From positions 62,001-126,000 of the forward strand of contig CAITSZ010000011.1 in NCBI GenBank assembly GCA_903895195.1: DNA of 64,000 nucleotides, written 5' to 3'. Below the pieces are notes generated by a model that saw nothing but the letters and a program-made list of their open reading frames with translations, was not told where the DNA came from and ran no database searches. How positions within the stretch are numbered: the stretch's first letter is position 1; every line of letters starts with the position of its first letter. This DNA is from an uncultured Chlorobiaceae bacterium (GTDB lineage Bacteria > Bacteroidota > Chlorobiia > Chlorobiales > Chlorobiaceae). Below, one piece after another: positions 49,827 through 52,685 of this stretch. A program made the translations under genes and the position numbers.

Positions 49827-52568
49827 TCAAAAGTTATGGCCGACGCTGAAATAAAAGATGGTATCAGAAAATCCAAGCGATGAGGTGCTCGGATTTGTTG
49901 CGTTTTTAAGAAACGCGAAAGCTTTTGAAACGGTGAACCTTGCCGGACCGATAGGCGTTTTCCATATCAGACTGGTGCCGGCACCGTGAATAAGCTGGCC
50001 GAAAGAGATTTCATCCCTGTCATCCCAGGCATTCCCGACATTGTAATGGAGTACAATCGATGTCGGAAACAGCAGATCGATCGAAGGCTTGTAGCGAAGA
50101 TGTACTCCAAATGCGGCAATATCGTTGCCTGGAAGGTCGTTTTCTTTAAGCCCGAAGAATTGCTGGCTGTAACTGGAACCTGGTCCTCCAAGGAAAAATT
50201 TTTCTGAGAGTGGCACGCTGACACTGCTGATGCCGAATAGTCCGGAGAGCTGCAGGGTTGTTTTGTTTCCAAGCGCAATATTCTCTTCGTGCCTTCCGGA
50301 CAACTGCCAAAACACATCATGAACCTTGAACGATTCCGAAGAACTTGAATATCTGAAGTTCGTATAGTTGCCGGAAGTCGGAATCAGTGGATCATCTCTC
50401 GAATCAAGAGTAAACTGTGTTCCTATCGTCATCAGGGTGCTATTTGCTGTCGACAGTGGACCTCCATTTACCTGCTCCGGATAGGAGAGAGAGTTCTGGT
50501 AGGTCATGTCCACAATAAGCCGCCCGTTTTTATTGATCCTTGTGCCAAACCCTGAGTTTATTCCATATTTCTGAATTCCATAGGTGCTCGATCCATTGGA
50601 ATGCGAATTGAAGAGCGCTTTGGAAAAGGTTATATCGCGGTTATCAAAGAGATGACTGTCATAAAAGATTCTGGATGACATGGTGAAGTGCGACGATTTT
50701 ATGCGCGGGATGTTAAACTCAACGTTTACCGAGCTGTTTCTTTTTCCTTCTATCACCCATCCACCGATTGAGCTTGTGGTCCCTCCAAAATTTTCGTTTC
50801 TGAAATCAAGAAGAAACTGCGCATTGTTTGTTTCATCATAACGCAATCCAAGCCTGAGTACAGAGGGCGGTTTTTCTTCAAGAGAGAACCTTAGCTGCGT
50901 ATTTTTTGTATCAGTTACTGTTGTAAGCGAAACGCCATTAAATGACCCGGTATCGTAAAGGTTATCGACCGACTCTTCAGCCTTTTTGGAGTTCAACGCC
51001 TCTGTCGTGTCAATTTTTATTTCACGCGTTATGGAGCTGATTCCGGTGATGTTCCTGTTCTGATGAATTTCTATACCATCCGGTTTTCCTGAAGAGACCT
51101 TTACCTGTAGTGTGCCCTCTCTGAATGAGGTGCTTTCTATCGTGACAAGACTGAACCCTTTGCTCCTGTATTTGCTTATCAGAGCCTCTAAAGCCTTTGT
51201 TCCTGATGCGTTGGTATAGAGGAGGCCGGTTACAGGCCTGAAACATGATTCTATTTCTTCCGTGGTAAGCGCATCTGTCGGCCCTCCGGTAAGGCTTATG
51301 CTGTTAATTCTTGGAAGCGGATCCAGGTGAAATGTAACTCTCTTCTTGCGGTTGTCCAGTTCAGCATAGACTCTTGTAAAGAGATCTGTCGCCAGGATGT
51401 TCTGCAGGGCTTTTACCGGCTCGGCAGCATTTCTCACTATTCCCGAAACAATGAGGTAGTGCTCCCTGAATTCAGGACTCTCATGGGAAAACTGGATTGT
51501 TTTTCTATACCGGCCTATAGCGGTGCTGCCGGGACTCTCTTTTACAAGGTTCTGTTTTATGGTTTCCGCAAGAATCTTCCCTTTTGTATAACCCTTCTCA
51601 ATGAGAGCTGTTATATCAGAAAAATCAGTAGCCTTATGGTCACTGAGATCAGGAGTTATGATCATATCTGCTTGAGCAAGCTGGGCAGGATACTGCAGTT
51701 TTGTCAGAATGGTCATGGTCTGATCAGCAGTTTTCCATGGAAGATCAAGTTCTACACCTGTTTTATACATGCTGCCATGGGTATCGACCGCTATTTTATA
51801 GCGTGCGTTGAACGTTTCGAGTTCATCGACAGGTAAGTTCGCAACAAGCCCTCCATCAACAAGCTCATATCCGTCACGTATGACCGGTTCGAAAAGAATC
51901 GGCAAGGTACTGCTTGCCCGTATTGCCTCTGAAAGAGCGCCGGAGCTGAGAGTGATCCGCTTGCCTGACACCAGATCAGTTGTTACCGCTCTGAAATTGA
52001 TTGGAAGAGAGGAAAAATCACCAGTATTTTTATAAATACCGTTCAGAGTTAGTAAATCGAGAGTTTCGGTTATCTTTTGAGCGGAATTAATCGATTTCGG
52101 CATGAGAAGTTTCAGCTTTTCGAATCTGAGTGCGATGGATGCCCGGTCACGGATTCGCTGCTGTTCAAGAAAAATATTTGATCGGGAATAATCATTCGTA
52201 AAAGACGTAATTGACTGCCAGGGAAGGCTGTGGGCAATTTCTTCAAGTTTATCAGGACTGTAACCGCAACTGTAAAGACCTCCGATAATGGCCCCTATGC
52301 TTGTCCCTGCTATAAAATCAACAGGGACTCCCTTTTCATCCAGCGCCTTGAGGACCCCTATCTGTGAAAGACCGTTGGCTCCACCGCCGGACAGGGCAAG
52401 ACCAACAGTCTTTCTTGCCGGCCTCATAAAAGGTCGCAGGGTAAAACGATGCTGTGGAAGTTCAAGGGTGTCGGGATAGATTATTGTTGCGGCATCGGCA
52501 GCTGGAGGTGCAGTCATATCCTGCAGAAAAGCGGCTATAAGTAACGCTATGTAAAAAAGTATTCTAAT
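49827..52568 (-). CDS. Patatin-like phospholipase with POTRA and outer-membrane beta-barrel
   Basis: From the ATT at 52568 this is a 913-residue protein of the PlpD (type Vd) layout. The patatin domain has [13 protein letters not shown] (oxyanion loop), GTSIGA (Ser nucleophile) and [10 protein letters not shown] (DGG Asp). POTRA-like segments follow (about 400-560), then a 16-stranded BamA-like barrel ending in Phe (FYFSVGHNF). The ATT start is chosen because AGGAG (52576-52580) is seven bases upstream and only this start gives a signal peptide ([16 protein letters not shown]). The first ATG at 52517 has no such signal. An in-frame TGA lies upstream, so no ATG, GTG or TTG alternative exists before it. 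Confidence 0.85.
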
Positions 52569-52685
52569 GGTATCGCTCCTGGTTCAAAATCCTGTGACAA
52601 GAAGCCTGTACAGGCTGTTTTTGAGTTCTCATGCGGACTTTATATCTTGAGCTTTAATGTATAACCTTTACTCCTAATTGTGAAA

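Follow-up and report, generated by a model that had tools for sequence, protein, structure and literature searches.

A probable ATT start codon, left where a 10-nt deletion removed an ancestral TTG, in a PlpD-like gene of Chlorobiaceae

The window, a 64,000-nt stretch of the draft genome of an uncultured Chlorobiaceae bacterium, contains a gene for a PlpD-like protein on the minus strand. surE lies downstream of it, and accD lies upstream and is divergent. From an ATT codon, the frame is open throughout to its end at 49827. The features of the locus are the following.

49827..52568, minus strand: plpD-like gene with patatin domain, POTRA and Omp85 barrel (Pfam PF01734, PF07244, PF01103)
52515..52517, minus strand: internal in-frame ATG, an alternative start without signal peptide (sequence reading)
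52518..52565, minus strand: n- and h-region of the putative signal peptide, up to the internal ATG (hydropathy; few nonsynonymous changes)
52565..52566, minus strand: site of a 10-nt deletion; GTTGAACGTA sits between these bases in the relatives G066 and G069 (alignments)
52566..52568, minus strand: ATT, proposed start codon (sequence reading; the same in three other genome bins, G005, G083 and G032)
52576..52580, minus strand: Shine-Dalgarno (SD) sequence AGGAG (sequence reading; identical in all four ATT genomes and in G066)
52564..52587, minus strand: possible 7-codon leader ORF, TTG AAC CAG GAG CGA TAC CAT TAG, which contains the SD; its stop codon shares one base, its first, with the end of ATT

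The product is predicted to be a PlpD-like phospholipase located in the outer membrane. Its match in the PDB is PlpD of Pseudomonas aeruginosa (5fqu, E 3.8e-52). The patatin domain (PF01734) carries the GxSxG and DGG motifs of the Ser-Asp dyad, and G88 T89 S90 G92 and D238 G239 G240 are invariant in the alignment. In the protein read from the ATG, Pfam scores one POTRA (PF07244) and an Omp85 domain (PF01103). A structure model places sixteen strands in the barrel region from residue 569 on, with low confidence (mean pLDDT 51). The protein is matched in 61 of the 61 genomes searched, and within the window's genus almost every member has it at full length; the named contigs of the closest relatives belong to Chlorobium or Chlorobiaceae. 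One full-length copy and a short patatin of another kind are present in the window's genome. Since a second full-length copy was not found in this genome, back-up by another copy of the gene was rejected.

On the minus strand, AGGAG is followed by the 7-nt spacer CGATACC and then by ATT. The codons after ATT read AGA ATA CTT TTT TAC ATA GCG TTA CTT ATA GCC GCT TTT CTG CAG GAT ATG. The initial annotation proposed that ATT opens a frame resembling a signal peptide, and its coordinates and codons are correct on re-reading. Its description of the surroundings is also confirmed: an in-frame TGA lies upstream (52586-52584), the window has no in-frame ATG, GTG or TTG between this TGA and the ATG at 52517-52515, and an AGGA (52522-52519) stands just 1 base ahead of that ATG. 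ATT is thus at a proper distance from the SD, and no canonical start is available in the window for the full protein. ATG 52517, the first canonical in-frame start, comes after the hydrophobic segment. Hydropathy over 11 residues is 2.89 in the form started at ATT versus 0.96 in the form started at ATG, and the hydrophobic core and AxA-type site of a signal sequence occur in the longer form only. This agrees with the earlier claim of a clear signal peptide after ATT and none from the ATG. By hydropathy and AxA site, the N-terminal signal peptide of a PlpD-like protein is therefore present only with a start at ATT.

Comparison with relatives points to TTG as the ancestral start. The upstream region was aligned for 50 distinct sequences, 47 of which are without the deletion. 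TTG occupies the homologous site in 44-45 of these 47 other Chlorobium sequences. The same AGGAG almost always precedes it, and 44 of the 47 combine TTG with AGGAG or a close variant; in one further sequence, L055, the site reads TTG CAC ATG. Two sequences, L020 and L023, have ATG at the start site. In both, ATG replaces TTG and AGGAG is also lost, so SD strength may possibly have been exchanged for start-codon strength. With these two exceptions, orthologues carry TTG at this place rather than the ATG that would speak against the proposed start. In the closest TTG-started relatives, G066 (Chlorobium sp. L227-2013-22) and G069, the sequence is ...CCATTGTTGAACGTAAGAATACTT, compared with ...CCATTAGAATACTT in the window. 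The window lacks exactly ten bases, GTTGAACGTA, and the start codons TTG TTG are gone with them. At the joint, the flanking bases form an in-frame ATT that is separated from the unchanged AGGAG by 7 nt. An identical deletion is found in G005, G083 and G032. In G032, two of the seven spacer bases differ from those of the window while AGGAG and ATT are unchanged. The start position is therefore conserved, with ATT in four genomes of three lineages aligned with TTG elsewhere. As ATT occupies the TTG start site of the relatives and recurs in three other bins, its placement is judged from these alignments to be beyond chance.

The four lineages concerned (the window, G032, G005/G083 and G066) form a near-star. 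A single clade of ATT genomes is not rejected by the plpD tree (p-AU 0.22), which is unresolved, but it is rejected by the concatenated flanking genes (p-AU 0.0008). The ATT genomes are therefore not treated as a clean clade, and the departure of the trait from the flanking-gene tree implies recombination or lineage sorting. Within a few bases of the start, two derived substitutions, at 52543 and 52536, are common to the ATT genomes in addition to the deletion. For this reason a single deletion event, followed by lineage sorting or recombination, appears most likely. With such a history, the deletion may be younger than the divergence of the gene suggests.

The gene is under ordinary purifying selection, the same as in its TTG-started relatives. 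dN/dS is 0.13-0.18 among the ATT genomes (896 codons) and 0.17-0.19 between them and TTG-started G066, with dS of 0.28-0.47 between lineages. No internal in-frame stop occurs in any ATT genome, and the gene is intact in all of them. In the 16 codons from ATT to the internal ATG, the window and G005 show 0 nonsynonymous changes versus about 12 expected if the segment were free to vary (P 6e-7). The corresponding numbers are 3 versus about 13 for the window and G032 (P 2e-4), and 3 versus about 9 for G005 and G032 (P 9e-3). This test is imperfect because the untranslated leader is likewise conserved among the ATT genomes (3-4 differences in 105), and constraint on DNA or RNA, or a recently shared haplotype, may contribute to the low divergence of the segment.

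Initiation at AUU, at a reduced rate, is probably the best explanation of how the plpD-like gene is expressed, because no other start includes the signal sequence. In the proposed mechanism, a 10-nt deletion would have stripped the TTG codons from a gene that ancestrally started with TTG, and its joint would set ATT in frame 7 nt past an unchanged AGGAG. Ribosomes would then initiate at ATT with fMet-tRNA at lower efficiency, giving a lower yield. The protein started in this way would retain its signal peptide and reach the outer membrane. Given its ancestral TTG, the gene has had a weak start for a long time. The deletion thus does not look like an evolved switch but like a change that a gene with a weak start could tolerate, and a further drop in expression seems to have been accepted. 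Comparison with relatives favors ATT as the start, which is the part of the initial annotation that stands; the infC-like purpose that it assigned to this codon is without support.

Published work bears on this reading in both directions. E. coli infC starts at ATT (PMC5472188). In S. aureus, where non-canonical starts including the AUU of cvfC1 were tested, the yield was about 10% of that of AUG (PMC13009471). Listeria rsbW mutants with an AUU start still make the protein (PMC13068326). Among AUG, AUA and AUU, however, AUU was the weakest in Listeria, with no fluorescence signal and the lowest Western band (PMC13068326). The SD here is only AGGAG, versus the extended SD at the AUU site of S. 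aureus cvfC1, which is a point against the AUU start. Evolutionary changes of this type are very rare: a survey of 36 genome triplets found that 0 of 2,468 ancestral UUG starts had changed to AUU (PMC5622118).

Translation could instead begin at ATG 52517 and give a protein without signal peptide, with the gene being lost or its product cytoplasmic. ATG 52517 is a canonical start, has an AGGA close by and is found in all ATT genomes. However, an AGGA at 1 nt is too close, the codons upstream of this ATG remain conserved, the POTRA and Omp85 barrel require export, and normal purifying selection acts on the entire gene, which shows no decay. The ATG is also present in TTG-started G066 and absent in G068; since G066 has it too, it is not a change that compensates for the lost TTG. 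We consider this reading unlikely. A similarly low probability is given to a selected, clade-specific AUU start, in which the weak start of this outer-membrane enzyme is purposely maintained in the genus and recombination carried the ATT haplotype between lineages because still lower expression is favored. TTG is conserved in nearly all species, though a single base change would yield ATG.

The leader ORF offers a still less probable route. It would be translated from TTG 52587, and ribosomes would re-initiate at ATT after the TAG at 52566-52564, so that ATT works solely via coupling. The leader stop overlaps the end of ATT by one base, and in 23 of the 50 distinct sequences a similar leader terminates across the start. 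Relatives often have ATG AAC CAG GAG ... TGA across the TTG start. However, such a leader is absent in 19 of the 50 relatives, and in 8 the upstream start shares the reading frame of the gene. The leader also lacks a conserved SD for its own start, which is TTG in the ATT genomes. From these alignments, the leader ORF does not appear firmly conserved. No known RNA element was found in the leader in Rfam. A perfect hairpin, AGCCTGTACAGGCT (52603-52616), lies between accD and plpD, within the leader on the plpD side; on the plus strand GTTTTTGAGT follows it, and the arrangement is terminator-like.

The initial annotation proposed that ATT limits a lipase toxic to the cell itself and that initiation-factor levels control it as in infC. 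In such a device, the level of IF3 would set the expression of a harmful enzyme, as with infC or sigR of Streptomyces. IF3 does repress non-canonical starts generally (PMC5472188), and the weak TTG is a conserved feature of the genus. However, the change is a deletion of a weak TTG in one small radiation, of which G066 keeps TTG. The infC start in this genus is ATG, and the IF3 proteins of G005, G083 and G032 resemble those of TTG-started relatives except for a variable C-terminal tail. No sign of toxicity is seen, and the role proposed for PlpD-like proteins is in outer-membrane lipid homeostasis, not in self-toxicity (PMC11116518). Neither claim finds support here, and an IF3-responsive device is very improbable. 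The assembly of the window's genome yielded no infC because contig C29 (1-289, L108) ends inside thrS. Loss of IF3 as the reason why ATT is tolerated was therefore rejected, IF3 being conserved in the other ATT genomes. A sequencing or assembly error at 52566-52568 is conceivable in a draft assembly of 49 contigs, but it is refuted, because three other bins share the deletion, each with its own neighboring substitutions.

Few natural AUU starts are well documented, and AUU is not among the codons sought by gene finders; in a plpD-like gene of this kind, annotation would therefore miss the signal peptide. In E. coli infC and pcnB and in S. aureus cvfC1, AUU likewise stands behind an SD at normal spacing, and low yield is likewise expected. 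The present case differs from them in that a deletion exchanged TTG for AUU in one small group, that IF3 autoregulation finds no support and that the product is an outer-membrane enzyme. sigR of Streptomyces has a GTC start that is repressed by IF3 and is regulatory (PMC5472188). There too, a non-canonical start is expected to reduce expression. In contrast to sigR, in which regulation through GTC has been demonstrated, the ATT start is confined to a few species. Both the ancestral state and the precise event are known, as are a close relative that keeps TTG and several ATT genomes, so the locus offers a clean natural experiment on the degree of start-codon weakness tolerable in a conserved gene. 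It is also a rare natural case, found in a few related green sulfur bacteria and accessible to laboratory tests, of a conserved protein that apparently can be started from a very weak ATT alone. The protein resembles type Vd patatin-Omp85 proteins such as PlpD of Pseudomonas and FplA of Fusobacterium, with which it shares a putative signal peptide, the GxSxG and DGG motifs of the patatin domain, POTRA and the Omp85 barrel. Unlike in these proteins, the stretch between patatin and barrel (50790-51620, minus strand) is long and may contain more than one POTRA.
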